58,421 nt of DNA. Origin: a virus. The stretch is taken from IMG/VR virus record IMGVR_UViG_3300017963_000308, positions 1-58,421 of that record, one strand, 5' to 3'. Shown one piece after another: positions 22,782 to 55,567 of this stretch. Position numbers and translations under genes: made by a program. Under the pieces are notes generated by a model that was not told where the DNA came from, searched no databases, and saw nothing but the letters and a program-made list of their open reading frames with translations. Position 1 is the first letter of the stretch, and each line of letters starts with the position of its first letter.

Positions 22782-22786
22782 AAGAC

Positions 22787-27933: not shown

Positions 27934-28127
27934 CCGCGATTGAAGCGATGAATCTTACCAAGGAATTATCGATAAAACAGCAAAAGTTAAAATACTTGTA
28001 TTGGATTAATGGTGATTTTAAGATATTTTCAGTTTTCCGGGAAAATTGGTTGTTTTTGGCTTATCCAAATGGTGTATCGACAATAAGCAAAAAGGGGAAA
28101 GAAATTTTGGCAGGAGAATTGAGCTAG
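27930..28127 (+). CDS. Small hypothetical protein (65 aa)
   Basis: Unrecognised, basic, aromatic-rich. ATGA overlap at the start and TAGTG overlap at the end make it part of the same translational unit as its neighbours. Confidence 0.55.
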   Translation: MTAIEAMNLTKELSIKQQKLKYLYWINGDFKIFSVFRENWLFLAYPNGVSTISKKGKEILAGELS

Positions 28128-29119: not shown

Positions 29120-29128
29120 GAGTAAACA

Positions 29129-30267: not shown

Positions 30268-30806
30268 AATACTATGATTTGGGTGATGATTTACGAAAAC
30301 AATATCAAGATGCCCTGCAAAAGCATATAAAATCGGTCCAAGAGGCCGGGAAAGAATTAGGTGTTTCTCCCCATTTGTTAATGATACATGACCTGAGTAA
30401 GTGGTCAGAAGAGGAATTTGTTCCATATGCCTTGCACTTTTTCGGGGGTGGCGCGCCTAATTTGTTTGCTCCGGCATGGTTACATCACATTCACTACAAC
30501 CCCCATCACTGGCAACATTGGGTTTTCCCAGACAACTTTGAACTAAAGGGGGCAAATACTTTTCAGGGAACAGTTATGATGCCAGAAGAGTACGCTTTGG
30601 AAATGATTGCTGATTGGATTGGGGCAAGCAGGGTGTATAGCAATACCGATGATATGTCAAAGTGGCTTAGAAAAAGTGTTCCGAAGATCAAGTTGCACCC
30701 CGCAACACGTGAATATGTAACCAAAATTCTTAAAGACATAGGGTACAAGTCTTTATTCGAAGAAATTCAATTCTCGGATTTAAGGGAAGGTAATGGCGAT
30801 GACTAA
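30264..30806 (+). CDS. DUF5662-like protein (180 aa)
   Basis: HDLSKWSEEEFVPYALHFFGG and AWLHHIHYNPHHWQHWV match my memory of the phage/bacterial DUF5662 family, whose His/Asp pattern suggests an HD-type metal enzyme. Function unknown. GTG start overlapping the preceding stop. Confidence 0.7.
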   Translation: MKYYDLGDDLRKQYQDALQKHIKSVQEAGKELGVSPHLLMIHDLSKWSEEEFVPYALHFFGGGAPNLFAPAWLHHIHYNPHHWQHWVFPDNFELKGANTFQGTVMMPEEYALEMIADWIGASRVYSNTDDMSKWLRKSVPKIKLHPATREYVTKILKDIGYKSLFEEIQFSDLREGNGDD

Positions 30807-31827
30807 ATTGGCCTTAGTTCGCGATAAGCATCTTAACTTACATGATATCGGCAATTACTATGGGCTGACCAAACTGGGAGTAGACCTGCTTTTGTGTGGT
30901 ACGCGCAAAGCCCCATGGGATCAAATAATGGAAATGTACCCGTTAGCTACACCGGTTTGTTACTCTGAGTTGTATGAAGTATTTCACCATGATCCTGATG
31001 TCATCGATGTCCCTGATGCCTTTTATGATTTTAGCAGATATTTTGTTGATCGGTTTGAAAAAACCGTTGTGGTAACCTGGGAGAATCTACCGGGGAAAGT
31101 TAGTCTAAATCCTGTTGCACTTGAGACATTGCGTAAAGCGTGGAAGGTAACGGCTAGAAGTGGATTGGCCTTGTATACTGATATTCGTATGCATGAAATA
31201 GATTTCAATAAAATCTTTTATATTCCGGGGGCGGTTGATACGGACTTTTTTCAGCCCCCCCCAACTCCGCCAAAAAACAACGTTGTTTTATTTGTGGGTC
31301 GATTGACCCAAGAAAAAGGCATTTTAGATTTAATTTGGGCGGCCAGCGTAACCGATGATATACACGTTAATGTTATTGGTGAGGGGGATCCGATTTACGA
31401 ATCGTTGGCAAATCACTATGCGCCCGGAAAATTTAATTTTCTTGGTCATGTTGACCGAAAATATTTACCCCAATGGTACCAACAGGCCAGTGTATTTTGC
31501 TTACCAACTCTTCCTTTGCTTAATGATCATGATCCTTTTGGGCAATGGGTTGAACAGTTTGGGCAGGTTTATATAGAAGCCATGGCCTGCGGTTTGCCTA
31601 TTATTACGTATTCAAGTCCAGTTGTGCAAACCATTATTCCCCGAGACACTCCCATGATAGCTCCGCGTGATTGGGGGGGATTGGCTTATATGCTTGCTAC
31701 CTATTCAGATCCAAATAATATTACATATGATTGGAAAGCCAATTCTGAGGCAAGTCGCAAGCGTGCTCTTGAAAAATTTTCGCAAATAGAAGTTGCCAAG
31801 CGAATCAAGGATTGGTATGAATTATGA
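30793..31827 (+). CDS. Glycosyltransferase family 4 (344 aa)
   Basis: GT-B enzyme: NVVLFVGRLTQEKGILDLIWA, then EGDPIYESL, and FGQVYIEAMACGLPIITY containing the donor-site E-x7-type motif (Q-V-Y-I-E-A-M). Likely elongates the same surface glycan. ATG 30793 or 30799 both have AAGG nearby. Confidence 0.85.
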   Translation: MAMTKLALVRDKHLNLHDIGNYYGLTKLGVDLLLCGTRKAPWDQIMEMYPLATPVCYSELYEVFHHDPDVIDVPDAFYDFSRYFVDRFEKTVVVTWENLPGKVSLNPVALETLRKAWKVTARSGLALYTDIRMHEIDFNKIFYIPGAVDTDFFQPPPTPPKNNVVLFVGRLTQEKGILDLIWAASVTDDIHVNVIGEGDPIYESLANHYAPGKFNFLGHVDRKYLPQWYQQASVFCLPTLPLLNDHDPFGQWVEQFGQVYIEAMACGLPIITYSSPVVQTIIPRDTPMIAPRDWGGLAYMLATYSDPNNITYDWKANSEASRKRALEKFSQIEVAKRIKDWYEL

Positions 31828-32549
31828 ATATAGCCGTATGTATGATCGTGTTAAATGACGAAGATAATATCGGCCGCGCTCTACATAGTATTTATTGGGC
31901 AGACAGGTTGATTATTGTTGATGGCGGATCGGTCGATGGTACGGTAGACATTATTCAGAATCATTGTCCAATCCCGTATACGCTGATAAGGCAGGAGTGG
32001 GATAACCATTTCTCTAAACAACGTCAGTTTGCTAATAATGAGATGGCTAATTTAGAGAACTTATCACAAAATGTTTTTGTCGATGAAGGAGATTGGTGGT
32101 GGGTTAGGCTCGATTCCGATGAGCGATTTCCCAGAGAATGGGAGCAAATAACCCAACTTATCCCAACATTTCCCAAAGAGGTTGTTTGTGTCCGGGTCAG
32201 GCAGGTTAATTTATATCCAGATGTAGACACTTACTCAGCACGCCATGGGGGATGGGAAACGCACCCCAGACTATTTAAGAATATATTGCTTCCGAATGGG
32301 GGATCAGCTTGGAGATGGCAGGGGCAGGTACATGAATACCCTGAATTGATGACAACCCGGGGATTGCATTATCCCGATGGGGGAGAAATTATTGATGTTA
32401 GCTTGCCGGTTGATCATTATGGTTGGCTAGATCCTGAACGCAGGGCGGATCGAGAGTCGTTATACCTAGAAATGCCGGGATCTAATTTTCAGGCAGGTCA
32501 AATCACAAACAGAAAGCACGTAGTTAGAAAGGTTCCCAAATGCGAGTAG
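31824..32549 (+). CDS. Glycosyltransferase family 2 (241 aa)
   Basis: IAVCMIVLNDEDNIGRALHS and LIIVDGGSVDGT followed by WVRLDSDERFP (metal-binding DSD) resemble the LPS-core/SunS-like GT2 subgroup. ATGA overlap with the previous gene. Confidence 0.88.
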   Translation: MNIAVCMIVLNDEDNIGRALHSIYWADRLIIVDGGSVDGTVDIIQNHCPIPYTLIRQEWDNHFSKQRQFANNEMANLENLSQNVFVDEGDWWWVRLDSDERFPREWEQITQLIPTFPKEVVCVRVRQVNLYPDVDTYSARHGGWETHPRLFKNILLPNGGSAWRWQGQVHEYPELMTTRGLHYPDGGEIIDVSLPVDHYGWLDPERRADRESLYLEMPGSNFQAGQITNRKHVVRKVPKCE

Positions 32550-34963
32550 CGGTATATTGCGATCACGTTGGTAGTTCCGGGATTGCCCCAAACGACCAGT
32601 ATGGCGGCGGAGAATTTTTAACATTGGGGTATCTACACATCCTAAGTCAGCACTATGATGTAATCCCAATTGTCAATAATTATATATATCCCAATTTCGA
32701 CCATCCCGGTCGTTATGGATTGCCGGAAGCAAACTATAAGTGGAAGCCAATTGGCACCGATATGGGTTGGATCCGTAATTTTGATGTTTTTATCAATATC
32801 AGCCATGGTCGCATCTTGCCCCCGATTTGTCGCCGGAATATTCTGGTAGTGATGTTCCCCCAACACAAGGATTGGGACGTGTCCGGCTACGATACAATCA
32901 TCTCTATTAGCGAATATACTGCTAAATGGGTAAAGCGATACTGGGGTCGGGATAGTGATGTTGTGTATCCCCCATTGCCGGTACAGGCCATGACCACTAC
33001 AGAAGTCCAGAAATACCCTCAAATTATATCGGTTGGCAGATTCTTCCGGGTACCAGGGGGGAACAACAAAGGCCATGAAGTGCTTATCAAGTCTTTTCAA
33101 AACCTGTTTTTAGAAGACTGGAAATTAAAATTGGTTGGCAGTATTCAGGACAGAGCTTATTACAATGAAATGAGAGCCTTGGCCGGAGATGATCAGCGAA
33201 TAGAATTTGTCCATGATTTGTCAAGAGAGCAATACATGGATGAAATGCGAAGATCTCAGTTTTTGTGGGCGGCTACAGGATATCAATCGCTCGCTCCGTC
33301 CAGCAAAGAGCACTTTGGCATTATTGCGGTTGAAGCTATGGCTTCTGGTACTGTGCCCATTGTTAACAATTCTGGGGGCACTCCCGAAACCGGTGCGCTT
33401 ACTTGGGACAAACCAGTCGATCTAACCGAAATGACCCGGAAACTAATTGAAGATCGTGACAGGTGGATGGATGTTATTAAGGGTCAGATGCAAGGGGTAA
33501 TGAAGTTTGATTTGTCTAATAACAAACCCCTGTTGGATGTAATGGAAAAAGTGGTTGTGATTCAAAATGATCCAAGCAAGGGGCGAATCTATTCCGATTA
33601 CTCAACCCCGGACAAAGTTAAGATTGGGATATTATCAGATAGCCCTAATAGCACATTGGGGTTTGGTGTGGTGACCAGATCTTTGATCAGGGAATGGCAA
33701 AAAATGGGTTTTAGGATTGCTGCTTTTGGTCGCCATGATCCCCCCTCGCCTCATCCAAAACTTCCCCCAGAAGATATAATGGCTATGTTTAATCAAGTAA
33801 TTAACGATGATAGATTGGTTACCGGTCCTCAACAAATGGCCGTGCTTCGGGAGAAGTTAGCAGACAGGGGGGAGATTTGTACAATTTGGCGGGATCCTCG
33901 AGATGGATGGGATGGTGTTATCGATTTCATCAAACACGAAAAACCCGACGTGCTCTATATGAACTATGACATAGGAAACATAAGGTCTATTATAGACACA
34001 ATAAGGGCGGCCAGTATGACAATGCCGCCTTTTGTGGCTTATTTTCCGGTAGAGGGATTTCCCCTGCTTCATCAATACAATGAAACAATTCGCCTTATTC
34101 GATTACTTAATGGTGTTCCGGTAACCTATACCAAATTTGGGGCTATGGCTATCGCTCAGTCTGGTGGGCCACAAGTGGATTACGTGTGGCACGGGGCCGA
34201 TCATGCCAACTTCAGGAGATTAGATGAGCAGACTCGTAATGAATTGCGCTTTAGTGTAGGTGTTCATGATAAGTTTGTTTGTATGTTTGTGGGGCGAAAT
34301 AAGCGCACTAAAGGCATTCTTGGTTTAATCGAAGCGATCAAGGTGTTGAAAAATATGGGTAGGCATGATATAGTGTTTTATATCCATACATGGCCTAATG
34401 ATCGCATGCCCAATTCTTCGGCTCCGCTTGAAGAAATCGTGCGAATTGAGGGTATCGAAGACATGGTTATTTTTCCGGATGAAGATTTTAATCAAGTGTC
34501 TGGGGTACCCTTTGACAAAGAAATAATTATTCATGCTCAGGACACAAATGATCTAAAAGAAGTTCAAAGAATTAATTTGAAGTCCATGAACATGGTTGAG
34601 CGTTATAATTTGGCAGATTTGTATGTGAACTGTAGCGAGATTGGTGGATTTGAGTTGCCGTTGGTAGAAGCAATGGGTTGCGGTCTACCGATTTTAAGTG
34701 TAGACGACAAGGCCGCCCAAAGAGAAGTTTTGGGAGATACGGCCATGTATGTCGACGTGGCGCATTGGGACAGGTTCCATACATGGGCAAAGCTGGCGCA
34801 ATTTAACCCGGAACAAATGGCACAGGCCATACATGAAATATCCATGGATCCTAAAACACTGGCCGAATTTAGGTTGAAATCATCGAATCGATGGCAGCAG
34901 TTCAAATGGAAAGATACGGCCAAGGTATTAGCAGATGAGATATTGGAGCAACATTTATTATGA
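32540..34963 (+). CDS. Two-domain GT4-GT4 fusion glycosyltransferase (807 aa)
   Basis: Two complete GT-B modules in one chain. First (about 1-340): N-terminal MRVAVYCDHVG, QIISVGRFFRVPGGNNKGHE, EHFGIIAVEAMASGTVPIVN. Second (about 360-807): VKIGILSDSPNSTLGFGVV, VCMFVGRNKRTKGILGLIEA, GGFELPLVEAMGCGLPIL. Each has its own donor-site E-x7-E. It may add two sugars in sequence, as in bifunctional polymerising enzymes. Largest enzyme and last member of the glycan block. Confidence 0.85.
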   Translation: MRVAVYCDHVGSSGIAPNDQYGGGEFLTLGYLHILSQHYDVIPIVNNYIYPNFDHPGRYGLPEANYKWKPIGTDMGWIRNFDVFINISHGRILPPICRRNILVVMFPQHKDWDVSGYDTIISISEYTAKWVKRYWGRDSDVVYPPLPVQAMTTTEVQKYPQIISVGRFFRVPGGNNKGHEVLIKSFQNLFLEDWKLKLVGSIQDRAYYNEMRALAGDDQRIEFVHDLSREQYMDEMRRSQFLWAATGYQSLAPSSKEHFGIIAVEAMASGTVPIVNNSGGTPETGALTWDKPVDLTEMTRKLIEDRDRWMDVIKGQMQGVMKFDLSNNKPLLDVMEKVVVIQNDPSKGRIYSDYSTPDKVKIGILSDSPNSTLGFGVVTRSLIREWQKMGFRIAAFGRHDPPSPHPKLPPEDIMAMFNQVINDDRLVTGPQQMAVLREKLADRGEICTIWRDPRDGWDGVIDFIKHEKPDVLYMNYDIGNIRSIIDTIRAASMTMPPFVAYFPVEGFPLLHQYNETIRLIRLLNGVPVTYTKFGAMAIAQSGGPQVDYVWHGADHANFRRLDEQTRNELRFSVGVHDKFVCMFVGRNKRTKGILGLIEAIKVLKNMGRHDIVFYIHTWPNDRMPNSSAPLEEIVRIEGIEDMVIFPDEDFNQVSGVPFDKEIIIHAQDTNDLKEVQRINLKSMNMVERYNLADLYVNCSEIGGFELPLVEAMGCGLPILSVDDKAAQREVLGDTAMYVDVAHWDRFHTWAKLAQFNPEQMAQAIHEISMDPKTLAEFRLKSSNRWQQFKWKDTAKVLADEILEQHLL

Positions 34964-35373
34964 GGGATTTTACGCCTCCAATTAAAAAAACGAGATACAT
35001 TAAGCCGGAAATGAATCCTGAGCCACCCCCGGAAGGTACCCAATTTAGGTGCAATGGATGCAACAGAGAATTGTTTGGGGTGTTTGATGGAGTGGGAAGG
35101 CTTGTCATCAGATACGGGAATCGAGTAACCACTATTACCGGGATAGTTAATTGCGAGTGTCGCAAATGTGGAGTAGTAAACAGCATCGATACCAGAAAAG
35201 TGTCATACAAGATCGATGTTACCTATGGCACCATGTTAGCGGAACCACTTGCAACACAGGCAGCTATCCAATATGCGGAAAAGCATAACATCGATTTGAG
35301 GGAAATCCCGGCAAATGGCAAAGTCACCATCTCAGAAGTTAGACAGTTCCACGAAAGAGAGTCAGGAAGTTAG
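34960..35373 (+). CDS. Zinc ribbon plus E3-binding-like domain (137 aa)
   Basis: CNGC and CRKC pairs (about residues 31-34 and 68-71) form a Com-like zinc ribbon. The C-terminus, ATQAAIQYAEKHNIDL then IPANGKVTISEVRQF, follows the peripheral-subunit-binding/Rho-N-like helical pattern. In Mu, Com regulates translation of Mom. Here the role is unknown. Confidence 0.6.
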   Translation: MRDFTPPIKKTRYIKPEMNPEPPPEGTQFRCNGCNRELFGVFDGVGRLVIRYGNRVTTITGIVNCECRKCGVVNSIDTRKVSYKIDVTYGTMLAEPLATQAAIQYAEKHNIDLREIPANGKVTISEVRQFHERESGS

Positions 35374-35800
35374 GGCTATTCAAGCCTTAGTAGAAATCCT
35401 GAGTGAAAAGCTACAAGAAATTCATGTCATCACTAATCAATTAGCTGGCGTTGATGACGTTTTACGAGAAACATCTGAATATCTTGTTGAAAACTTTGCA
35501 AGAATAGATGAATCGTTGTTATTGATTCTTAGAAAATTAAACGGTGACGGAAAATTAACCAAAGCCCAACGTGACGATATCAAGAGAGATACTAAGGAAC
35601 TGGAAGCACAGGCGATCAAAAGTCGTATTCGCTCTTTAAGAATTCAGATATTACAACATCAAGAAAATCTCAACCGGCTAGAAGAAAAACAGTCTAGGGA
35701 AGGCGATGACTTTGCGACTACAAATGAAATTATCAGACAGCAAAGATTTATTAACGAGAAGCAGGAAAAAATTCTCGAATTGGAACGGGATCTCAAATGA
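35315..35800 (+). CDS. Coiled-coil protein (161 aa)
   Basis: Almost entirely charged helices with heptad character (LQEIHVITNQL, LEAQAIKSRIRSLRIQIL, NEKQEKILELERDL). It overlaps the preceding gene by 59 bases, so the start is uncertain. Possible partner of the membrane protein that follows. Confidence 0.6.
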   Translation: MAKSPSQKLDSSTKESQEVRAIQALVEILSEKLQEIHVITNQLAGVDDVLRETSEYLVENFARIDESLLLILRKLNGDGKLTKAQRDDIKRDTKELEAQAIKSRIRSLRIQILQHQENLNRLEEKQSREGDDFATTNEIIRQQRFINEKQEKILELERDLK

Positions 35801-42704: not shown

Positions 42705-43045
42705 ATGTAATCATTCGAGAGTTAGTTGGGCCGCCGTATTACCTTCCAATCGAAAAAATACTTACCGAAATGACTTTGCCTCAAGTGCTTTATATGCTAT
42801 TGGGCAAAAAGGAGCATGAAGCAGCCGATGCGCGCCAATTCTTCACCCTCACTATGGCGGCCATCGGCTCTTGTTTTGGTAAGGATGGTGAAAGATTGGC
42901 AAATAAGATACTCGATTCGCTTGATGGGCCGCCTGTTCCGATAGATGAGCTTATCAGAGATATGCCGCGCGAACAAGCGTTGATTATGTTTGGGGCAGCA
43001 AGGTTGGCGGAACTGGAAAATGGACAAGAAACGAATTCTGATTGA
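42593..43045 (+). CDS. Tail assembly chaperone T part (made as GT fusion)
   Basis: Open in the -1 frame relative to G from the slippery site to 43045, adding about 150 residues to G. There is no ribosome site for independent translation. Helical domain (LPQVLYMLLGKKEHEAADARQ). The GT fusion binds tape-measure protein while G binds tube subunits, as known from lambda. Confidence 0.8.
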   Translation, partial: NVGRSGAEDHKYMDFLNRRGFEQFYRDTDGNEWGSDIDVIIRELVGPPYYLPIEKILTEMTLPQVLYMLLGKKEHEAADARQFFTLTMAAIGSCFGKDGERLANKILDSLDGPPVPIDELIRDMPREQALIMFGAARLAELENGQETNSD

Positions 43046-46000
43046 GATCCTAACCAAATTTACTGACAGTGGAGTCAGGGCCGCCCGTGCTTCAGTTGAA
43101 ACACTGAATGCCGAAATGAAAGCTATGCAAAAGCAGCTTAATGCGGCGGTTAGGGCTGAAACCAACATCCCCAAAGTTCAACAAAGGCTAGATAAAGCTG
43201 TTACCCAAGAATTAAAGCAGCAAATTTCCGACCGCAGACGGTTGATTAGTCTTAGCAATCAACTTACCAAAGCGTTATCCAGAGAAGCCGCGGCCGCAAC
43301 CAAAGCAAGCCTATCATTCAAGAGTTTTCGGGGTGCGCTTAGGGGTACCGGCCAACAGCTAAAAGGCCTTCTGGGGAAATTGGGCGGGGTTACTTCTGCT
43401 TTTCGAGCACTCACTCTACAAAACACCCTGGTTGGTAGGGTTACGTTTGGTTTTCTGACTGTCCAATTTTGGCGTGCTATTGGTGATGCTATAGGGTTTG
43501 CTACTAACGCTATTGTCAAAGGCAACGCGGCCATGCAATCGGCCATTGGGACATTTACCGCCCTTAGTGGTGGCAATCGGGCTTCTGCGGATAAATTTAT
43601 AGCCATTCTAAAAAATCTGTCTGTAGAAACCGGTGTAGCTTTTGATACATTACTGGAAAATGCTAGACGTTTGCCGTCAAAGGTTGGGCAAAACTTTCAG
43701 GATTTTACCAAGCTAACCAAAGCCGCAATTGCTATCGGCATGATCGATCCGGCTCAGGGGGCTGAAGGTGCCTTCTTTGCTCTCACGAATGCCTTGGAAG
43801 GTGGAGCACAAGGGCTTAGATCCCTGATTCAAAGGTTTGAAATTGGGACGGTCAAGGATTTTAATGAGGAATTAGACAAAACCGGCAATGTGGTAGATGC
43901 CCTTTTGGGGTTGTTGGCTAGATCGAATATCGAAGTAGATGCTTTTATTAAAGCGCAACGCAACACATGGCCTGTAGTCGTAATGGGTCTGCAAACGATG
44001 CTCAAAGAGTTTTTGCGAGTATCTACATCCCCATTTTTCAATCGAATGACCGAAGATTTGGCTCGCTTGAGAGATTGGTTACAGGATAACGCGGCCGCGG
44101 TAGAGGCGTTGGCGCAAGTAATAGGCGACAAGCTAATGGTTGCCTATGAACTTTTCTTGTCATTTATCCGGGAACTAACAGGGGGAAAGGAAATAACCGC
44201 GGCTTCATTGTTTAATGGCGTTGTCAATGCGATTAATGGCTTCGTAGACTTTTTGCATAACGCTTTTGTAGCTATTGCTAACCTGATAGCCAACATTGCA
44301 AATCTAATTAGCATGTTGTTTGGTGGGCCACGGGTAGTAGAACAAGTCAAACAAGATGCAAGGACGGTGACTGATGAAGTTACGGCCGCGGCCAAAGAAA
44401 CCAGTAAAGCGGTCGAAGAAACGGTTGAATCCGCCGCCGAAGCAGCCCAAGAAATCCCGGAAAAAATAGTCAAACCTCTTGGGAGTGTGGTTTCTAGCCT
44501 TAAGGCTATTGGCGATATCGGCAAGCGCACAACAGAACAGATGGTAGCAGGGATTATAGAGGGGCTAAATACCGAAACCTTGGAAGCTGCTACCCAAGCT
44601 ATTTTGAGTAACGTAATTAATCTGGAAGCACAGGAGAAACGGCAAGAGGAATCCATTGATAAGTTGGAAGACTGGGTAAATGAAGCCGCGGCCGAAGTGG
44701 ACGCTGCTAAAGATCGATTAAAGCTGTTCGATCTGGCAACTGAGGACATCCCAGAGCGATTCACCCGGGCGCGTCGTCGCCAACTTGAATTAGAGATATT
44801 AAGGGCAGAGCAGGAAGAAAAGCGGCGCAAGGCCGCCTTAGATGCGGCAAAAGAGCAACTTAAAATCACAAAAGAACAACTGGCCGCCCAAGAAAAAGTA
44901 TTAGCTTTACTCGAACAGGCTCTAAAAGAGCAGGAAAAGGCCGGTCAGGGGGTGTTTACCGGTTTTAAGGATACGGACATCGATACAACCGGCTTTGCAG
45001 AAGAGGTTGATCGATTAAAAGATATTTTCTCAGACAGACTCCAGCCTACGTTTGATAATATTCGAGACTTATTCCGGGATATGGCCGATTTCGTGAGAGG
45101 TTTTGTTGGGGCCGATCCTGCGGGGCAAATTGAAGGAATGTGGGCCGCGGGCAAGAAACTACGTGAAGCAATTGCCGGGATCGCGGGTGGCTTGGGAGAT
45201 CTGATTAATAAGGTTGATTCCATTTTCGCCGGGTTTAGTGATGGATGGGCTAATCTTGATCCCAGTATGCGAAAATTCCTGCTTGTCCTTTTGGGGATTG
45301 GGGCACTTAAGAACGCCGGATTGATTACTGCGGCCATCAGACTTGTTTGGTCATTTGGGGGATTATTGGCTAATTCCGCGACGGTCGGGCTTAAGCTATT
45401 GGCCGCTCTTACCGGAGTAAGCGCGCTAACATTGGGCGCGCTAGCCGTTTCTATAGTGGTATTGGCAACTCTTATTTGGAAGGGTCGAGAGGAATTATCC
45501 AAGTGGATTACCGGCCAACGCCCGTTAGAACTACAAGTTGTGCTCATTACCAAAGGGATCGAAGCGATTAACAAATTGCTTGATTTTGTTGGGTCTGACA
45601 AGCAACTTGATGTTGGGGCAATAACTAAGCCATTTGCCGATCAAATTCAACAGATCAAGGATGAGGTTGCCCAAGATGAAGGGATCGTCCCATCACTTTT
45701 GAAGTGGTTAAGCGGGGTTAGGTTGGCGCAATTGGCCGGTAAGTTCTACTCCGCAATGCGCGACAATATGAAAAAACCCATCGTTGACGTGGCTCAGGAA
45801 ACAAGCGATGAAGTTGTTGGGAATTCGATTATCCCGGACATGCTATCAATGGTAGCTCAGGCTATCATCGATTCTACCCCCAGAATCAAGGGGGCTATGA
45901 TCGCCATGAGAGTTTCGATCATGATGGAAATGAACGCCTTCCGAGATGAATGGCTTTCCGATTGGGATGAAATGGCCGCGGCCGTCCGCAATACTATGGA

Positions 46001-46205
46001 TATGACTGATGAAGCCAGGGAAGAGAGCGGGCGAAGAACATCTAGCGCGGTACCCAAATCGGTTACGGAACGATTCAGGGAAGCCGCCCGGGAAAGCGAC
46101 TCCAGTGTCAATATCAGAATGGACGCTAACGAAACTCGCCGGTTTATGGAAGAGGGTTTTTACGAAAGATTAGCCGAATTTGGTCGGACGACTAGGGGGC
46201 GATAA
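43020..46205 (+). CDS. Tail tape measure protein (1061 aa)
   Basis: Longest gene of the window. Long helical and coiled-coil regions (about 460-640, LELEILRAEQEEKRRKAALDA), hydrophobic helices near residues 754-820 and an Ala/Gly-rich N-terminal third (LTNALEGGAQGLRSLIQRF). By the usual rule of about 0.15 nm per residue it predicts a tail of roughly 160 nm. ATG 43020 with GGAA upstream overlaps the T frame by 26 bases. Confidence 0.95.
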   Translation: MDKKRILIEILTKFTDSGVRAARASVETLNAEMKAMQKQLNAAVRAETNIPKVQQRLDKAVTQELKQQISDRRRLISLSNQLTKALSREAAAATKASLSFKSFRGALRGTGQQLKGLLGKLGGVTSAFRALTLQNTLVGRVTFGFLTVQFWRAIGDAIGFATNAIVKGNAAMQSAIGTFTALSGGNRASADKFIAILKNLSVETGVAFDTLLENARRLPSKVGQNFQDFTKLTKAAIAIGMIDPAQGAEGAFFALTNALEGGAQGLRSLIQRFEIGTVKDFNEELDKTGNVVDALLGLLARSNIEVDAFIKAQRNTWPVVVMGLQTMLKEFLRVSTSPFFNRMTEDLARLRDWLQDNAAAVEALAQVIGDKLMVAYELFLSFIRELTGGKEITAASLFNGVVNAINGFVDFLHNAFVAIANLIANIANLISMLFGGPRVVEQVKQDARTVTDEVTAAAKETSKAVEETVESAAEAAQEIPEKIVKPLGSVVSSLKAIGDIGKRTTEQMVAGIIEGLNTETLEAATQAILSNVINLEAQEKRQEESIDKLEDWVNEAAAEVDAAKDRLKLFDLATEDIPERFTRARRRQLELEILRAEQEEKRRKAALDAAKEQLKITKEQLAAQEKVLALLEQALKEQEKAGQGVFTGFKDTDIDTTGFAEEVDRLKDIFSDRLQPTFDNIRDLFRDMADFVRGFVGADPAGQIEGMWAAGKKLREAIAGIAGGLGDLINKVDSIFAGFSDGWANLDPSMRKFLLVLLGIGALKNAGLITAAIRLVWSFGGLLANSATVGLKLLAALTGVSALTLGALAVSIVVLATLIWKGREELSKWITGQRPLELQVVLITKGIEAINKLLDFVGSDKQLDVGAITKPFADQIQQIKDEVAQDEGIVPSLLKWLSGVRLAQLAGKFYSAMRDNMKKPIVDVAQETSDEVVGNSIIPDMLSMVAQAIIDSTPRIKGAMIAMRVSIMMEMNAFRDEWLSDWDEMAAAVRNTMDMTDEAREESGRRTSSAVPKSVTERFREAARESDSSVNIRMDANETRRFMEEGFYERLAEFGRTTRGR

Positions 46206-46207
46206 AA

Positions 46208-46615
46208 ATGCCTGATGATCTTGGGTATGATTGGGGCTTAAAGATCGGTACTACAAAATTCAATATGTTGCCCTTCAGGGTCACCCCCCATGTAGAGTTT
46301 CGGCCAGGGACAGAGCGGAAAAGAGATGCATGCGGGGGCAGCGTATGGACAGGACCGGCCAAGTGTGTTTTGACGTGGCCGGAGATGGAATTGGAAGGGG
46401 AACAGTTTTATCAGCTTCAAAGCATAGTTGGTAATAATCCCAGTGCGCGGGTATATATGGATATTCCTACGCAAACATTGAACACAACTACCTACCAACC
46501 AATTGTGTCTGCCTATACTGGCATACTTCAATGGCCGGATGAAGGGGTGATGATGACCCATTTCTATCGTTGGGAAATGCCGGAAGTTGAAGTAACGAAT
46601 CTGAGTCCAATCTAA
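46208..46615 (+). CDS. Minor tail protein (135 aa)
   Basis: Beta-rich protein directly after the tape measure (VTPHVEFRPGTERKRDACGG, PTQTLNTTTYQPIVSAYTGI), in the slot of gpM-like or distal tail proteins. Family not certain. Confidence 0.6.
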   Translation: MPDDLGYDWGLKIGTTKFNMLPFRVTPHVEFRPGTERKRDACGGSVWTGPAKCVLTWPEMELEGEQFYQLQSIVGNNPSARVYMDIPTQTLNTTTYQPIVSAYTGILQWPDEGVMMTHFYRWEMPEVEVTNLSPI

Positions 46616-47901
46616 TGACAAGATACAATCCGCACAACGATTTGGTTTATGACGCGGCAAGTGGCGATGGTACCTATCTTAAACCACTTGTTCCAAAAGT
46701 TGGGGTTAATAATTTGCCTCTTGACGCGTTTCAAAGAGTGAGAATTTCTAATTCTATTAATCGCTTTGATGCTCAATTTACATATAACTTGCAACCGCTT
46801 CTATATCAGCCGATCACCGCGGAAAGCGGTGCAACCATTACCCATGATGCAACCAATCGTTGCGCCCTGATGACATTTAGTAGCACTCCCACGGGCGGCC
46901 AAGCTTATATGCAAAGCTATCGCTGGACACATTACCAACCGGGTAACAGTCACTTGATTTTCGCAACCTTTAATTTTAGAGAACACGTGACCGGGGTAAC
47001 CAAGTTTGTTGGTTATGGCGATCTGAGTAACAACGGAGTTCATTTCATTAGTGACGGCGAAGGGTTTGCATGGCGAATTTTGAGCAATACCGACAACGGA
47101 GATCAAACAATTGAGCAAGCTAATTGGAATATAGATCCCCTGGATGGTACCGGAAGAAGCGGGTTTAGCCTAAATATTCAAGCAACCCATATTGCCGTTA
47201 TTGATTTTCAAGCCCTTTATGTTGGTCGGGTAAGAGTTGGTTTTGATATAGATGGTGAAGTCGTATGGTGCCACGAATTCGACCATGCGAATCGGGCTAA
47301 TTATCCCTATATCCAAACCGCTACATTACCTGTTATCTGTGGCATGACCTGTACGTCAACAGTCAGCACAACAATGCTGTTTATTTGCTCTACGGTTAGA
47401 TCAGAAGGATCGTCACTGGAAGAAGAAGGGTTTGGGTTTTCGGTTGAGGGAACGGCTACGGCGGCAAGCGGGGCGCGTACTCATGTTTTAAGCATTAGGC
47501 CAAAAACAACTTTCAATAGTATTGCTAATCGCTCTTTATTTATTTTGCAAGAGATAGATGTATTGGTAATTGGCAACAATCCGGTATTATGGGAATTGTG
47601 TATAGGGCAGGCGATTAGCGGTACCACTACCTATAACAACGTTAATGCAACTTACTCTGCTTTTGAATACAACACCGCGGGAACTATTAGCGGTTCTCCT
47701 TCTGTCGTGTTATCCAATGGGTATACGGCGGCCACCAATCAATCAAAGGGGGTAGCCAATGCGCAAATTTCAAATCAATATCCCATTACTTTAGACGCGG
47801 CCGGGGCGGTAAGATCCTTGGGTACCCTGAGTTTGATAGCAACCGGTATTGGGGCGGATTCAGTCATGAGAGCATCATTAAGCTGGAGAGAAATTAGATA
47901 A
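46615..47901 (+). CDS. Tail-tip structural protein (428 aa)
   Basis: Beta-rich, with N-terminal PLDAFQRVRISNSINRFDAQ and a concanavalin-like central part; many Thr/Ser/Asn. No known family. TAATG overlaps on both sides. Probably a tail-tip or baseplate structural protein of a type common in environmental siphoviruses. Confidence 0.6.
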   Translation: MTRYNPHNDLVYDAASGDGTYLKPLVPKVGVNNLPLDAFQRVRISNSINRFDAQFTYNLQPLLYQPITAESGATITHDATNRCALMTFSSTPTGGQAYMQSYRWTHYQPGNSHLIFATFNFREHVTGVTKFVGYGDLSNNGVHFISDGEGFAWRILSNTDNGDQTIEQANWNIDPLDGTGRSGFSLNIQATHIAVIDFQALYVGRVRVGFDIDGEVVWCHEFDHANRANYPYIQTATLPVICGMTCTSTVSTTMLFICSTVRSEGSSLEEEGFGFSVEGTATAASGARTHVLSIRPKTTFNSIANRSLFILQEIDVLVIGNNPVLWELCIGQAISGTTTYNNVNATYSAFEYNTAGTISGSPSVVLSNGYTAATNQSKGVANAQISNQYPITLDAAGAVRSLGTLSLIATGIGADSVMRASLSWREIR

Positions 47902-50600
47902 TGCCAGTAGTATCAGCCGGTGACCTAACAACTATACGTAGCAAGCGGCAATGGGGTAAACTTGGCTTGCTTGTTTTTCGTCCTGAAATTATTGCTACCG
48001 GCCAATCCGCCGTTGCTACCGGTTCGCGTAGCTTTTCTTTGGGTAGTTATTCGGCCACGGAAACACCCCAACAATATTACACTGTAATAGCCGGATCGTC
48101 AGCCGGGAATGATGATGGCGGTAAAACCCGGCTCAAGTCGATTACTGGCGGCGGAGCCATGGAAGTTGCTCCCAACAATATTGACTGGACTACCTATCCA
48201 TATGTAAGCATTCTCAGGGAAATTTTACCGTGGTCGATTTTACCGGATCTGGGTAACGATCTGATGGATTGGGACATCCCCTACAACGGCAACCAAACAA
48301 GCTTCCCCCCTATTGCCAGGATTGGGCCGCCCCCTTTTGCGATGGTAGGAGAAACGGTTAAGTTTTTCTCAGATAGTGAGGCAATCACCGGTTCAATTAG
48401 CTCTCATAGCTGGACATTTCCAGGGGGATCCCCATCTAGTTCATCAAGTGCTGGCACAGAAGGAAGCCCCATAGAAGTGACTTTTGCCACGGCCACGGGC
48501 CATGTTCCAAAGTATGTAAAGTACACGGTTACGGCCAGCAATGGTAAAAGCCACACTCGTTATAATCCAATTTGGATTTTAGATGAGTTTGATGATGCCT
48601 ATTGCCAGCTTGAGATAGATAGTTGTAGTGGGTCAGAAAGCGGGGGCGGTTGGGATGCCAAGTTTACCGTTCATGGCGATGCAACCACATCTGAGTTTCC
48701 TCAAGATTGCATGGTGATGGTAATTGCGGAAGACTATTACGACGACAACAAAACATCGGTTGGGGGCAATTGGGCCTACCGCGAAAATGTGGTTTATATC
48801 GGCTGGATTACCAATGGAACGGTTTTCAAAAACGCCGATACAGGCAGCGTGTCATTTGAAACAAAAGGGCCAATACCCATAGCGAAGGATCTGCTTTCAT
48901 GGCCTGCCAATCTTGAATATAAATCAAGTCCCAGTCAGTGGAATCACATTGCCGGGATGACTTGTGATCGAGCCGCTTTACACATTGTTAAAGAGCGATC
49001 AACGCTTGATCATATCGTTGACATCAATCTGACCGGCAATACCAAGCTTTTGCGTTATGTAGACATCCCGGAAACTGACTTGTCTACCCAGTTAGATGAC
49101 TATTGTCTATCTGCTATTGGGGCCAGGGCCATAAGTGATCGCCAGGGCCAAATATATTTTAGCCGGGATCCCAATAAGCGGCCTCTTGGAGAGCGATCCA
49201 GTATTCCAACAACGATGGATATCGAGTTAGCCGATATTAGGAGTGACCCGGGGGCCAACTATGAAGAAGAGATTCAATATCCAAGGGTGGCACAGGTTGA
49301 TTTTATTGGCTTCAATTATGATGGCAATGATGCTTCTCCCCTGTATTCGTTGGCTCCACAGTACCAGTTTGAGCATGGTAAAGTAGAAAAGGTGGATGGG
49401 GTATTATGTGATGACCAGACAGAAGCTAATGTTTTGTCTGGTATGTACTTGGCCGATTTCAATAACTTATGGACAAACATCAAATTCCCGATGTGGAACA
49501 TGCGGGTTTTTGATATCGTGCCCGAAGAGTATGCTACTCATTCGTTGGTAGCAACGGATACTAAGCGGGGGATAGTCTGGGATAGTCAAAAGCTGATTTG
49601 CCGGGAAGCATCGGTTGAATATGACCCGGAAACTTATGAACTATATTACAATGTCACCTTCGAGAAGGATTCGTTTGGGCCGCCAGGGGTTGGGGGCGGA
49701 TATTACACCCCATCTGCGGTGCCGAGTTCGGTGCCGGATCCGCCAGGGGAAGCATTAGCAGCTTGGGGAAGTTGGTATATACGCAAGAAAGGCGACAACG
49801 CATGGACCGACCGCTCAACTCAAGATGACGACTCGTTTATACACGGTTGCGTAGATCCATGGTGGTTTGTGCCAACCAAAGCTAACAGTCTCAACCCGGA
49901 TAAGTCATGGATTTACGGTGTGGGGGCTGGTGGAATATTCAAGCGATCACTCAACGGGGGTCAAAGTTGGTCAGATGTTACGGTAGATGCTCCGCCCAAT
50001 ACATGGAGTGACGCTACTGCACCCACGGCTACGAATATTGATTTAGTTTGGGTTATTGGTGACATCTACCAGATTAATCGTTTTTATGTGTTGGGGAGAT
50101 ACCAGGGTGACGGTGACGCTTACCGGGGTTGGGTTGGGATAACCGATGATAATTTCAACAATACAACGTGGTATGCCCTGTATGATGGGGTGACGTTAGT
50201 TGACGAAGTTAGACCTTTGGGCGCGGCCGTCAATGAGACAAATCTGCTCATTACTACCTGGGAAGATGATGGCGTAAATACCGAAATTCGCATGCAAGTC
50301 TGGAGTCCTTCGGAAAAAACCTATCAGGGTGATTGGGTATTGGGGGCGGCGAGTACCGGCGACATTCCGGCCACATTGACAGCATACCCATTTACGGTAA
50401 TCGACGCTAATGAGACTTGGTATGTTTACGGTAGAATGAGTAGCCCGACAACATTATCGGGAACACAACACGTAATTAAATACGCTGATGGTACCTGGAC
50501 ATCGGTAGAATCGACCTGGGGGAGTAGCGTTTGTAATACTTTTCATGCATCCAAAGCAGATGATCAAGGAAGGCGGAATCTTTATGCGGTTAGATCGTAG
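47901..50600 (+). CDS. Tail hub/tip protein with PKD-like and propeller-like domains (899 aa)
   Basis: N-terminal tail-associated region, a PKD-like Ig domain (about 143-214, MVGETVKFFSD...SHSWTFPGGS), a central region with hub-like DYCLSAIGARAISDRQGQIY, and a C-terminal part with GIFKRSLNGGQSWSDV (about 677-692), a BNR/Asp-box-like repeat of a beta propeller. May contact cell-surface polysaccharide. Confidence 0.65.
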   Translation: MPVVSAGDLTTIRSKRQWGKLGLLVFRPEIIATGQSAVATGSRSFSLGSYSATETPQQYYTVIAGSSAGNDDGGKTRLKSITGGGAMEVAPNNIDWTTYPYVSILREILPWSILPDLGNDLMDWDIPYNGNQTSFPPIARIGPPPFAMVGETVKFFSDSEAITGSISSHSWTFPGGSPSSSSSAGTEGSPIEVTFATATGHVPKYVKYTVTASNGKSHTRYNPIWILDEFDDAYCQLEIDSCSGSESGGGWDAKFTVHGDATTSEFPQDCMVMVIAEDYYDDNKTSVGGNWAYRENVVYIGWITNGTVFKNADTGSVSFETKGPIPIAKDLLSWPANLEYKSSPSQWNHIAGMTCDRAALHIVKERSTLDHIVDINLTGNTKLLRYVDIPETDLSTQLDDYCLSAIGARAISDRQGQIYFSRDPNKRPLGERSSIPTTMDIELADIRSDPGANYEEEIQYPRVAQVDFIGFNYDGNDASPLYSLAPQYQFEHGKVEKVDGVLCDDQTEANVLSGMYLADFNNLWTNIKFPMWNMRVFDIVPEEYATHSLVATDTKRGIVWDSQKLICREASVEYDPETYELYYNVTFEKDSFGPPGVGGGYYTPSAVPSSVPDPPGEALAAWGSWYIRKKGDNAWTDRSTQDDDSFIHGCVDPWWFVPTKANSLNPDKSWIYGVGAGGIFKRSLNGGQSWSDVTVDAPPNTWSDATAPTATNIDLVWVIGDIYQINRFYVLGRYQGDGDAYRGWVGITDDNFNNTTWYALYDGVTLVDEVRPLGAAVNETNLLITTWEDDGVNTEIRMQVWSPSEKTYQGDWVLGAASTGDIPATLTAYPFTVIDANETWYVYGRMSSPTTLSGTQHVIKYADGTWTSVESTWGSSVCNTFHASKADDQGRRNLYAVRS

Positions 50601-51282
50601 GGGTCAAAGCATGGTAGAGATGGCAATCCTATCACCCTTGCTTATTTTTATGTTGATTGGCTTGTTTGAGGTTGGTTACTACATCAGACATTGGATTACT
50701 TTGGAGAACTATACCAGGGAAATAGCCAGATATGCTACCAGATCTGATGTACTGGATTTCTATGGGGCTACGGTTGAACAAATTGGCTATGATCGAGTGA
50801 TCGAACATGCCGAAGGGATCGGTCATCAACTACCCAGTGATGTCGGGATTGTTATTTCGCTATATGATATCCCCGGCCAATACTCTTGTGATCCGGCTGA
50901 AAGGGAAGAACCGGAAGAGGGGAGTACCGATTTGTGGCCGAATTGTAATTGCACTTTGGCGATACTCAATCCATACACGGTTTCCCTATCCAGGTCGCCG
51001 GAGTTGGAGCCATGGCTTAGATATCGGACAGATCCAGAATTAGTATCGGCTATAGATGATCTGGTAATGGTACAAAAACTTACTTTGCAAAACCGTAAAT
51101 TTAATTGTGAGTTAGGAAAACAGAATCCGTACATTGGCACAAGTGATAATCGAGTTGTGGCGGTTGAGGTTTTTGCCAATCATAATCAACTATTTGGTTT
51201 TCCGTTTATCGCCAATCCGTATACAGATCCGTTGCCGATTCGTGCTCAGGCAATCATGCGGCAAACAAGGAATAGGGAATAA
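50584..51282 (+). CDS. TadE-like pseudopilin (232 aa)
   Basis: N-terminus MRLDRRGQSMVEMAILSPLL followed by IFMLIGLFEVGYYI is a TadE-type start: basic leader, Gly at -1, Glu at +5 of the mature form (E12), then a membrane helix and an outside domain with four or more Cys (about residues 98-120 and 180). TadE proteins are minor pseudopilins of Tad pili, cut by a prepilin peptidase. Here it is embedded between the tail-hub and fibre genes. ATG 50584 with AAGGAAGG upstream overlaps the hub gene by 17 bases. An N-terminal anchor of unrelated origin is the alternative. Confidence 0.75.
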   Translation: MRLDRRGQSMVEMAILSPLLIFMLIGLFEVGYYIRHWITLENYTREIARYATRSDVLDFYGATVEQIGYDRVIEHAEGIGHQLPSDVGIVISLYDIPGQYSCDPAEREEPEEGSTDLWPNCNCTLAILNPYTVSLSRSPELEPWLRYRTDPELVSAIDDLVMVQKLTLQNRKFNCELGKQNPYIGTSDNRVVAVEVFANHNQLFGFPFIANPYTDPLPIRAQAIMRQTRNRE

Positions 51283-52574
51283 TGGCTACTTGGTCATTAA
51301 AACAAACAGGGCTTAACGATTCGTCTACTACCGGCAAAACGATTTCGATTTTGGAAACCGGGGGCGTAAAAAAAGCCTACATTTATAACAATAATGGGCA
51401 TGTATTGGAATACAACGCCGCAACAGATTCTTTGGTTGCCATTTCTGATGCAACAAGTTGGGGCGGAGATACCATGCCTACCGCAATCGCAAACAGGCCG
51501 GGGCCGGTTGTTTTTGGTGGTGAGGTTTACGCATATGTTCACGATGCGGGGGCGGTTAATGATGGGGTTTGGAAATGGGATGGAACGGACGTAAGTGGAT
51601 GGACAAGGGTTTTTGATGCCGCGGGTACTGTTTACACATTCTTTTCACGAAGCGAAAATCATTTATTGCTTGCTGTTTACCCCGACGCTGGTAGCACTCA
51701 AAAGTATAGCACAGATGGATCAAGTTGGTCAGATGCGAATACTAGCGATGATTCTCCGGCCGCGTTGGGATTCAGCTATACCGCCGCTTCTTTTTATTCC
51801 GGCGATCATTCTCTTGGAGCATTCTTGAAAGATCGCTCAACTGATGGGGGGGCACCTGCGGGGTCGATTATAGTCAGATTGTTCAAATGGAGTGAAGCTA
51901 ACCTTAAGTGGGAGATCATAAATTCCGGAGATGATGCAACCGGGGTGAAAACCGGTGATTACTGGGTAGCCGATATTTATACAATAGGTACTTATTATTG
52001 GAGAAAAATCGCACTTGAGTATGAATTTTCTTCTAATTTGTCTTCCTGGACAACCCCTACTACTTTGCCGGAAGATGTTGATCCAGCCGATTGTAGCGGG
52101 TTGAGTGCGGTTACTGTTTCTGCGGGGGGATATGATGACTTAGTTGACGACAATTCGCTCTATTTGCTTGAAGATGGTGTTGATTGGAGCACTCCGGAAG
52201 AATTAGTATCAGTTGGCGCAAATCATTTGGTAAAATCGGTATTTATGTTTTCTGGGGATGGTACCGCTTTTGCTATTATTAGATCTGATGATGGAGTAGA
52301 GATATGGGGGCGTAGCGCGGCTTTTGTCGTCACGGTTGCTGCTACATTCTACCATGGCATAGACGAATTGATTTCGAAAGCAACGCTGGCCGTAACCGAA
52401 CCGGGGCCGCATGGCATGGCCGTCAACACTCAAGGGGAAGTTGTAATTGGCTCCGGCGAAGCCGGGGCTACGATGTCAGAGAAACTTACTAATGCTGATG
52501 ACTATGCCACAACGGAAGATTACACAAACGGACTCGATATAACCGAAGGGCTTAACGTGGTAAGGTACATCTAA
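51282..52574 (+). CDS. Propeller-like tail-tip protein (430 aa)
   Basis: Repeats of Tyr/Trp/Gly/Asp-rich blades (NGHVLEYNAATDSLVAISD, GVWKWDGTDVSGWTRVFDA, QKYSTDGSSWSDANTSDD) suggest a seven-bladed propeller or kelch-like fold. Ends with ILEG-type residues and TAATG into the fibre gene. Unrecognised family. Likely a receptor-contact subunit. Confidence 0.6.
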   Translation: MATWSLKQTGLNDSSTTGKTISILETGGVKKAYIYNNNGHVLEYNAATDSLVAISDATSWGGDTMPTAIANRPGPVVFGGEVYAYVHDAGAVNDGVWKWDGTDVSGWTRVFDAAGTVYTFFSRSENHLLLAVYPDAGSTQKYSTDGSSWSDANTSDDSPAALGFSYTAASFYSGDHSLGAFLKDRSTDGGAPAGSIIVRLFKWSEANLKWEIINSGDDATGVKTGDYWVADIYTIGTYYWRKIALEYEFSSNLSSWTTPTTLPEDVDPADCSGLSAVTVSAGGYDDLVDDNSLYLLEDGVDWSTPEELVSVGANHLVKSVFMFSGDGTAFAIIRSDDGVEIWGRSAAFVVTVAATFYHGIDELISKATLAVTEPGPHGMAVNTQGEVVIGSGEAGATMSEKLTNADDYATTEDYTNGLDITEGLNVVRYI

Positions 52575-55567
52575 TGGGCGCAAGAGAAGATGCCGCCAGA
52601 GCATGGCGAGAAATTTGGGATAACTTACAAGAGAAGATTGAAATAAAGCGGGGTATCCTGGGTAATGGGGCCGGTGTAGTTAGGGTGCCAAATCGCCCGG
52701 ACTTGTGCTATATGCGCCTTAATGCCAAATCTCAGGTGGTTTGGCAGGTCATTAATGACGAAGTTGCTGACGTTGATGGCCTGATGGTGCTGGCAGAAAA
52801 GAGGCCAGATTCGAAGTATTGGCAGATCGTAGACATCGACAAAGATGCCTATATTTCGATGGGTACCGGCTTTTCCGGAGTCAAATATAAGCCAACTCAC
52901 CATGAAGAACACGAATGGCCGGACTATACCCCCGGGCCTGATGCGGTAAATGTCTACAAGCGCGCTTTGGTCGACCTGAGAACGGATTATACCACCCCTT
53001 ATGGTTTAAACGTAATGGTCAGGCCAACTATCTACACTTACGACAATCAGGAGAAGCGGTATTTGGGTACAAGCTATTTGCCGTTGTCTTCATATGTACC
53101 AGGGTCGGGGAAACGACTGGTACTAACCTACCTGGATACAAGAGACAACTTGGTTTATGCCCTTCCAGGTCCAGTAACAGCATACAACATATTGTCGACT
53201 CCCGAAACCCCCTTCATCCCCCCATACTCAAAAGTTAGCGCGGTAGTGGAGTTACACGAAGGACAATCCGAAATTAAAGAAGCAGATATAGAGGATGTCC
53301 GGGATTGGTTTAACACAACTCCTATCAGGACTCAAACCAGGGCGCAACGATCCCCCTTAGTTACAGATGACAGAGATTTCGGATATGAGGCGGGAGCGGT
53401 TTGGGTTTATTATCCAGGAGCTAATGCTTACATATCGGTAGATGATACGCCGGGGGCGGCGGTTTGGAAAGACATAGTTTCTGGGAGCGGATCTGGGGGT
53501 TGGCCTTATACTGTTCTTAATGAGAGTACGGGAACAACTTACGATACTTTAACTTCGGCTGAAGCAGCAGCTAGTACCGGCGAAGTGCTTCGATTGGGGG
53601 ATGTCTCGTTAGCAGAAGCGGTGACGGTAGACGCCGACATAACTATAAAAGGTATCTCAGATGAAGCGTCAATTATTACCCGGAAATTAACCGTTACAAA
53701 CGGCGGTAATTTAGCCGATTTGAGAATTGACAATACTACCGATACTGAAGCATTGGAGTTTAATACGATTGATGATAGCGTCAATCGAAACTGCTATTTC
53801 TCAACGGTCGGTGTAGCTGATGGGGTTGGCGTTTATATTAATGGCACGTTTAGCGTTTTCTTTTATGATTGCCAGATGTTAGCTACTACCGGTTCGGGCA
53901 ATCGGTATGGGTTAAGATTAAATGGTGGTAGCGCGGCCGTATTTGGCGGGCGAATGAGCGGGGCTAGTGCTGACCTTAGAGTAGAAAATAGTGCAATTGT
54001 TCGATTATACAACATGCCGATTTTGGCAAATAATAATCTATCTATCGTTAGCGGAACAGTAAAAGGATTCTTTCAAAGCGGATTGGGAGATACTTATTAT
54101 ATTGACACAGACATAAGCACGACTCCTTTCAAGTTTGAAAGTGCTGCTTTTCCGGCTGATGGTTTTGCAATGATTGGTAGTGAGGTATATGCCACTATCG
54201 CCGCGGCAATTACCGCAGCAAGTACCGGCGATATTATCAAATTGGGGGCAGGTACATTTACAGAAGCCATAGATATTGATGAAAGCGTAACAATTGTCGG
54301 CTTAGGGCCGGACAGGACGAAGATTACTTCTAGCGGGGCTGACCACACTGTAGCCGTGTTAGCAAATGATGTTACGATTGAGGGAGTCGAAATTGAGAAT
54401 ACCGGAACAACATCTAACGTAGCTGCTTTAACTCTTGGCGGCTCTTCATCGACCGGAGCAACAATTAGAAATTGTCGGATAACCAGAAGTGGGGCAGCTA
54501 CAACATCTTGGGGAATGTATGTTGGTTATACTGGTCACGTTGTTGAGTATACCGAAATAGCTGCTTCGGGGGGAACAACGACTCATGCCGTAAGAAATGA
54601 TACGGCGGCCTGCAGCATTACTTTTAGGAACTGTACGATAGATGGTACAGATAGAGATGTGATAGGGGCTATAGACGCTTCTACCATTACCTTGCGAGAT
54701 ACGGAATGTGGAACAGGGGGAGTTGAGGTACTTGGTAATTCATCGATTTTAAACATAAATGGTGGTAGGGTTGCTGGCGGAGTTACGGTTACTTCTGGAA
54801 GCCCGACGATAAATCTAAGAGAAATTCCAACCTTGACCGGAACTATTTCAACTACGGCAACGGGGTTTTACCGGGATAGTTCTGGAAATATTCAGGGTTA
54901 TGGTGATGTAGACATCCTGCCATATGGGGATGCTTATGGTCTATGGTTTAGAAAAGTTGATTTCGGCCTTTCGTCAATTGATGAGCATTGGCACCAGGGT
55001 AGTGACGAATTAACATGGACAGGTTGGGCGGCTTATACCGGATACAACACCCCATCTACGGTTAGCCAAGCAAATTCAAAGCTAATTGCGGGTCATAGTA
55101 GCTCGTCACGGTTTTTCTATTATCGCTCCTATGCCAACGCTGATACAACTCTTGTTTGTTCTGCACTCACGTCATTGGCGAGTGAATGTGGGTTGATGGT
55201 TGACGATGGAGTAAATGCAGGAGATGGAGAAGGTGCTAATAACTTTATAAGGTTTTATGTTATCTGGTCTAGCGCAACCAGTAATGCCACGCTTGCCAGT
55301 GATTATAGGACCGGGGGTGGTGGCGTGACGAATGCGACTTATCTTTCGTTTCCCCCACAAGATTTTATTAGTTTTGCCTTAAGATATGGCAATGGTACAC
55401 GCTGGTCAAATTGGGGGGCTGTACTACGAATTGCAGGAGATGGGGGGGTAGTGAATAGTATTGTTATCCCGGTATCTGGTTTAAGCTGGACTCCTGCCCG
55501 ACACGGGCTTTATGGAAGGAATACTGTAGGTGGTCGCTTGGTGGCATGGGATTGGTTTATAGAATAA
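52574..55567 (+). CDS. Tail fibre/tailspike with two beta-helix domains (997 aa)
   Basis: N-terminal attachment domain (about 1-300), then pectate-lyase-type right-handed beta-helix segments (about 321-470 and 536-760: EVLRLGDVSLAEAVTVDADI; IIKLGAGTFTEAIDIDESV), and a beta-sandwich C-terminal domain (about 780-997). Beta-helix tailspikes often bind or degrade surface polysaccharide; catalytic residues cannot be assigned. Confidence 0.75.
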   Translation: MGAREDAARAWREIWDNLQEKIEIKRGILGNGAGVVRVPNRPDLCYMRLNAKSQVVWQVINDEVADVDGLMVLAEKRPDSKYWQIVDIDKDAYISMGTGFSGVKYKPTHHEEHEWPDYTPGPDAVNVYKRALVDLRTDYTTPYGLNVMVRPTIYTYDNQEKRYLGTSYLPLSSYVPGSGKRLVLTYLDTRDNLVYALPGPVTAYNILSTPETPFIPPYSKVSAVVELHEGQSEIKEADIEDVRDWFNTTPIRTQTRAQRSPLVTDDRDFGYEAGAVWVYYPGANAYISVDDTPGAAVWKDIVSGSGSGGWPYTVLNESTGTTYDTLTSAEAAASTGEVLRLGDVSLAEAVTVDADITIKGISDEASIITRKLTVTNGGNLADLRIDNTTDTEALEFNTIDDSVNRNCYFSTVGVADGVGVYINGTFSVFFYDCQMLATTGSGNRYGLRLNGGSAAVFGGRMSGASADLRVENSAIVRLYNMPILANNNLSIVSGTVKGFFQSGLGDTYYIDTDISTTPFKFESAAFPADGFAMIGSEVYATIAAAITAASTGDIIKLGAGTFTEAIDIDESVTIVGLGPDRTKITSSGADHTVAVLANDVTIEGVEIENTGTTSNVAALTLGGSSSTGATIRNCRITRSGAATTSWGMYVGYTGHVVEYTEIAASGGTTTHAVRNDTAACSITFRNCTIDGTDRDVIGAIDASTITLRDTECGTGGVEVLGNSSILNINGGRVAGGVTVTSGSPTINLREIPTLTGTISTTATGFYRDSSGNIQGYGDVDILPYGDAYGLWFRKVDFGLSSIDEHWHQGSDELTWTGWAAYTGYNTPSTVSQANSKLIAGHSSSSRFFYYRSYANADTTLVCSALTSLASECGLMVDDGVNAGDGEGANNFIRFYVIWSSATSNATLASDYRTGGGGVTNATYLSFPPQDFISFALRYGNGTRWSNWGAVLRIAGDGGVVNSIVIPVSGLSWTPARHGLYGRNTVGGRLVAWDWFIE

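Follow-up and report, generated by a model that had tools for sequence, protein, structure and literature searches.

A TadE-like gene in the tail-tip operon of a phage: apparent cargo possibly directed at the host pilus

Why would a tailed phage encode, between two genes of its tail tip, a protein resembling TadE, a minor pilin of bacterial Tad pili? The question is raised by the gene at 50584-51282 of the window, by which we mean the whole 58,421-nucleotide stretch of DNA that was analyzed, an IMG/VR virus contig. The virus is considered to be a tailed phage because the contig carries genes for a terminase, a Mu-type portal, a capsid E-type major head protein, and a tape measure protein; no tail-sheath gene was seen among the proteins checked. 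The original prediction described a prepilin-like N terminus (basic leader, Gly, Glu at +5, and hydrophobic helix) followed by a Cys-containing ectodomain, suggested comparison with TadE profiles and a search of related phages, and placed two readings side by side: a surface pseudopilin that changes host pilus assembly and a virion part that mimics a pilin.

The gene and its predicted product

The tail-tip region, compared below with two other phage contigs, G026 and G031, contains the following features, all on the plus strand.

42990-46205, plus strand: tape measure protein, marker of the tail module (PHROG 167 and 305)
47901-50600, plus strand: putative tail hub or tip protein, 899 aa, upstream neighbor (located 3' of the tape measure gene; homologues in G026, G031, and Virus Rctr41k)
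50566-50573, plus strand: AAGGAAGG, Shine-Dalgarno-like stretch 10 nt 5' of the ATG of the TadE-like gene (read from the sequence)
50584-51282, plus strand: phage TadE-like minor pilin gene, 232 aa (PF07811 match above the cut-off; homologues L033, L034, L042, and L043)
50602-50619, plus strand: predicted prepilin-peptidase-type site, from Gly7 (50602-50604) to Glu12 (+5; 50617-50619), both invariant in five homologues
50620-50685, plus strand: hydrophobic N-terminal helix, residues 13-34, predicted membrane anchor or filament core (TadE model match, hydropathy, and a helix at 5-52 in the structure model)
50740-51279, plus strand: predicted exported ectodomain with Cys102, 121, 123, and 175 and the C-terminal 'NPYTDPLPIRAQAIMR' motif (five-homologue alignment; modeled strands)
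51282-52574, plus strand: propeller-like protein, 430 aa, downstream neighbor (weak homologues occupy this position in G026 and directly follow the hub gene in G031)
52574-55567, plus strand: putative tail-fiber or beta-helix protein, 997 aa, next in the operon (weak Pfam Beta_helix match; 40% identity to G026)

The open reading frame of the TadE-like gene extends from the ATG at 50584 to the TAA at 51280-51282. Its ATG lies 17 nt inside the 3' end of the hub gene (50600) and its stop codon shares 1 nt with the ATG of the propeller gene (51282), overlaps that make translational coupling to both neighbors plausible. A longer, mechanically called frame starts at 50545, but the start at 50584 is preferred because of the Shine-Dalgarno-like stretch and because the sister phage described below has a start with its own such stretch at the matching place. 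The GC content is uniform at the locus. The hub protein itself gave no significant match in Pfam or PHROG, and its identity to the homologue in Virus Rctr41k is 27%.

The product begins with MRLDRRG-QSMVEMAILSPLLIFMLIGLFEVG, or MRLDRRG-QSMVEMAILSPLLIFMLIGLFEVGYY when a longer stretch is written out, in which Gly7 is followed by Glu12 at +5. Pfam PF07811 (TadE) matched the 232-residue product over model positions 1-43 of 43 with E=1.8e-11 and 44.4 bits, well above the curated cut-off of 22.9, and in the 58-kb record it matched this gene alone. When stop-to-stop frames of at least 70 residues were scanned for a basic leader, Gly-x4-Glu, and 16 hydrophobic residues, exactly one frame in the window, that of the TadE-like gene, had a prepilin-type N terminus. 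The protein found no match in NCBIfam or PADLOC, and its best match in PHROGs was insignificant (E=0.084). Judged from the sequence, assignment of the N terminus as TadE-like is firm, and that of the whole product is probable. The N-terminal features that were originally described are thus present, the ectodomain contains four Cys residues, and the suggested profile comparison gave a clear match.

Several other regions of the window were noted. At 11588-12706 the phage encodes a DNA polymerase III beta clamp in which the three Pfam domains are all present. The interval between the portal and capsid genes is occupied by a large block (19408-35800) of genes for glycosyltransferases, methyltransferases (one of TylF type), and a DegT aminotransferase, which is partly conserved in G026 and might be a phage glycan or decoration cluster. 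An open reading frame with repeats of the type 'HxLTAVELTSGAPEFETPT' runs off the contig end (56293-58419).

Phage homologues and their relation to cellular TadE

Searching the viral contigs with the single sequence (P0001) returned nothing, and relatives were seen only with alignments as queries; these scans gave the four full-length homologues, with 38-44% identity to the window protein in the alignment. A repeat scan with all five sequences added no further homologue, which leaves the family with five known members, and queries with the hub or capsid proteins revealed no new relative among the viral contigs. All four homologues scored above the cut-off of the TadE profile (43.9-55.8 bits). 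Gly7, Glu12, Cys121, Cys175, and a C-terminal G-x-P...N..TDP...MR pattern occur without variation in all five phage proteins, and the search of related phages has yielded the same gene, with the Gly/Glu(+5) site conserved, in four viral contigs. Selection against amino-acid change is clear in the closest pair, P0008 and P0009, which are 70% identical and show a dN of 0.24 versus a dS of 2.26, the latter being near saturation.

When 50,697 phage records were queried with the TadE-like protein and the TadE consensus, no TadE-type match was obtained; the consensus gave three weak matches with E values of 0.7-2, none of which extends over the Gly/Glu site. The same consensus recovered 12 plasmid records, several of them with annotated TadE genes, so the search of phage records has some but limited power. 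In the open-access literature, no description of a phage-encoded TadE or pilin was found. These empty searches agree with the original statement that a gene of this kind was not known from any described phage tail module.

Among cellular genomes, 26 of the 398 from one bacterial phylum gave an N-terminal match at E<=1e-12, the strong matches reaching profile positions 1-86 at most, and the 384 genomes of another phylum gave none at that threshold. No full-length relative of the phage protein was found in the cellular genomes searched. Because the matches are either N-terminal or absent, the phage ectodomain appears distinct from the cellular ones searched. An hhalign comparison restricted to the ectodomains, against five cellular TadE proteins, gave a weak similarity in the last 35 C-terminal columns (P=0.0023 as a single comparison; probability 12.5%). 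The AlphaFold2 model made from the five sequences (pLDDT 70, pTM 0.61) contains a long helix at 5-52 and strands at 87-96, 189-200, and 217-228, which could form a small sheet after the helix; single-sequence prediction was poor (pLDDT 46). With this model as query, Foldseek found nothing at E<=0.001 in the PDB or among viral models, and kinesin-like and other low-quality matches with TM of about 0.25 were discarded as meaningless.

Location of the gene in the sister phage and other carriers

The 83-kb contig G026, which holds L033, is largely collinear with the window, and their terminase, portal, capsid, tape measure, and hub proteins share 58%, 56%, 60%, 42%, and 57% identity, respectively. 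On these sequence comparisons, G026 is a true sister of the window phage. Its TadE protein, 42-44% identical to that of the window, is encoded at exactly the same hub/propeller junction; thus, the gene does lie inside a tail-tip cluster, as was originally claimed, in both phages. Because of this synteny, chance or assembly artefact is rejected. A recent accidental capture of a functionless host gene, or a chimeric contig, might be imagined since some bacteria commonly carry TadE genes, as the 26 of 398 genomes illustrate, but it is scarcely credible in view of the five phage copies, the shared junction in a diverged sister phage, the purifying selection and uniform GC, and the lack of a full-length relative in the cellular genomes searched.

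The remaining carriers have the gene elsewhere. In L034 and L043, which are short contigs, it is located 5' of a ParB/methyltransferase-like gene and terminase genes, and in the 79-kb contig G031, which holds L042, it is located 5' of the terminase and portal genes. G031 also encodes a hub homologue with 26% identity over residues 85-898 of the window hub and a weak propeller homologue (26%, E=6e-5), and the hub and propeller genes lie next to each other there, without an intervening TadE gene. Because they abut, the tail tip of G031 is complete without TadE at that place, and a fixed tail-tip position, which is found in G026, does not extend to G031, where the gene is near the terminase. That TadE resides at a different locus in phages with common tail genes is the main evidence for a cargo gene as opposed to a fixed virion part, and phage TadE appears to be mobile cargo under selection, not an obligate component of the tail tip.

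These locations bear directly on the reading that the protein is a tail-tip component, whose pilin-like helix would serve in assembly, cross or touch the host membrane, or mimic a pilin at adsorption. Such a role would fit the position between the hub and propeller genes, with overlaps on both sides, in the window and G026, but the gene is near the terminase in three carriers, and the homologous hub and propeller genes of G031 adjoin without it. In addition, a prepilin signal directs a protein to the membrane, while tails assemble in the cytoplasm. We consider a virion part quite unlikely, and this half of the original prediction is weakened. Because the location differs between phages, action on the host cell surface, perhaps on pili, is more probable than a fixed tail piece.

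Further features were noted next to the gene in two of the other carriers. In L042 (9647-10675) no stop codon separates the TadE frame from a membrane-protein-like frame upstream of it, in which hydropathy shows one clear segment, and the product might be either a fusion cut by prepilin peptidase or translated from an internal start. In L034 (569-925) a frame that overlaps the TadE start encodes a small protein, a possible partner of TadE there, that combines a single hydrophobic segment with a calcium-loop/dockerin-like motif. The continuous frame in L042 and the position among late genes would suit an aid to lysis or egress, in which a late protein is anchored in the membrane via the prepilin route without any role in pili; however, a bare anchor would not require the conservation seen in the TadE core and the C-terminal motif, and no lysis-gene neighbor was identified, making such a function very unlikely.

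A second insertion in the tail-tip operon of the window is a virion-type gene at 46615-47901 (PHROG 1645), for which no homologue was found in G026. It has relatives in 25 other viral contigs, mostly with about 30% identity and four with about 55-57%. As a marker of related phages the gene was misleading: none of the 25 contigs had a TadE match, and G026, which does carry TadE, is without a homologue.

Possible action on the host pilus

No prepilin peptidase domain (Peptidase_A24) was found in the five phage records, which is weak evidence as the contigs may be incomplete; the domain is present in both TadE-bearing cellular genomes tested. Because the phage records tested have no such peptidase, a host enzyme would be needed for processing. 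PF13400 (Tad) likewise gave no match above the cut-off in the five records, and one match below the threshold, in G027, coincides with the TadE gene. The pilin, ATPase, platform, and prepilin peptidase genes of a tad locus do not surround the phage gene, which stands in a tail or packaging context. A Chloroflexota host was considered on weak indications (the 'IYLPVIYN' C terminus of the L034 neighbor and a Thermomicrobium match in the plasmid set), and this assignment was not used; the 398 and 384 cellular genomes searched represent two phyla other than Chloroflexota.

The explanation that we tentatively favor, at somewhat less than an even chance, is that the protein is a captured minor pilin that is processed by the host and alters a Tad-type pilus of the host, resulting in superinfection exclusion or surface remodeling. 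The host-pilus reading is also the better supported of the two readings originally proposed. The gene would be ultimately of cellular origin and carried as cargo (a "moron") in a late operon, its late expression being deduced from gene position only. The protein would be made in the infected or lysogenic cell, have its leader removed by the host prepilin peptidase, and become anchored with the ectodomain outside the membrane, where it might join or compete with the host TadE/F/G minor pilins. The host pilus would then be altered, capped, or left unassembled, which might keep out rival pilus-dependent phages or change the attachment of the host. The location of the gene among virion genes in two phages counts against this explanation. 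Published work gives some background: TadE/F/G are proposed to make up the Tad pilus tip, and their homologues in Myxococcus form exchangeable tip complexes (PMC12075869); Tad pili serve as a phage receptor (PMC11067988); and shutdown of type IV pili by phage proteins gives superinfection exclusion (PMC8764522, PMC11436027).

G031 carries a serine recombinase, from which its phage may be temperate, and a temperate state would fit superinfection exclusion; in the window and in G026, searches for two integrase families gave no match. The same possible lysogeny could instead serve conversion, during lysogeny or infection, that helps the host without excluding phages: equipped by the phage with a new pilus tip or a surface pseudopilin, the cell would adhere or sense surfaces differently. 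The variable ectodomain with its conserved Cys residues and the exchangeable Tad tip modules of Myxococcus (PMC12075869) agree with this idea, but late-gene position suggests expression too late for a host near lysis, and neither integrase family was found in the window. We regard conversion of this kind as unlikely.

As for how an altered pilus might arise, what goes beyond a TadE-like protein with an export signal, encoded by a conserved cargo gene, is most economically inferred to be a decoy or substitute minor pilin. In its specific form, in which phage-encoded decoys processed by the host peptidase replace or cap the tip of the host Tad pilus and exclude superinfecting phages by substituting for a subunit instead of blocking the motor, the proposal is somewhat doubtful. 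The pilus-blocking phage proteins described in the papers cited (PMC8764522, PMC11436027) act on the assembly platform, motor, or expression and not as decoy pilins, so that among them the mechanism would be without precedent. If it operates, a selected, relocating pilin-type gene would add a new route by which phages act on type IV filaments, Tad-type pili would be a battleground between the phages of this host, and phage TadE would be a small protein that may reprogram the pilus tip.

The closest known relatives are the TadE/TadF/TadG minor pilins of Tad (type IVc) pili, which have the same 43-residue N-terminal domain, with the Gly/Glu(+5) site and hydrophobic helix, and a weak C-terminal similarity in the same order. 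In contrast to these, the phage proteins are encoded alone, without tad genes, are longer (212-242 aa versus 132-147 aa in the five cellular proteins compared), and contain a Cys-bearing middle part that is unmatched in the cellular genomes searched. The Tip minor pilins KilL/KilM/KilN of Myxococcus are also of the TadE/F/G type with added domains and show how such a protein can change a Tad pilus at its tip (PMC12075869), but they belong to a bacterial predation system with three partner pilins, while the phages yielded no partner pilin. PfsE of Pf4, Gp05 of D3112, and Aqs1 of DMS3 resemble phage TadE in the proposed outcome, namely disturbance of host type IV filaments and superinfection exclusion (PMC8764522, PMC11436027). 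By their descriptions they are set apart, since PfsE binds PilC, Gp05 and Aqs1 act on the PilB side, and none of them is described as a pilin or prepilin.
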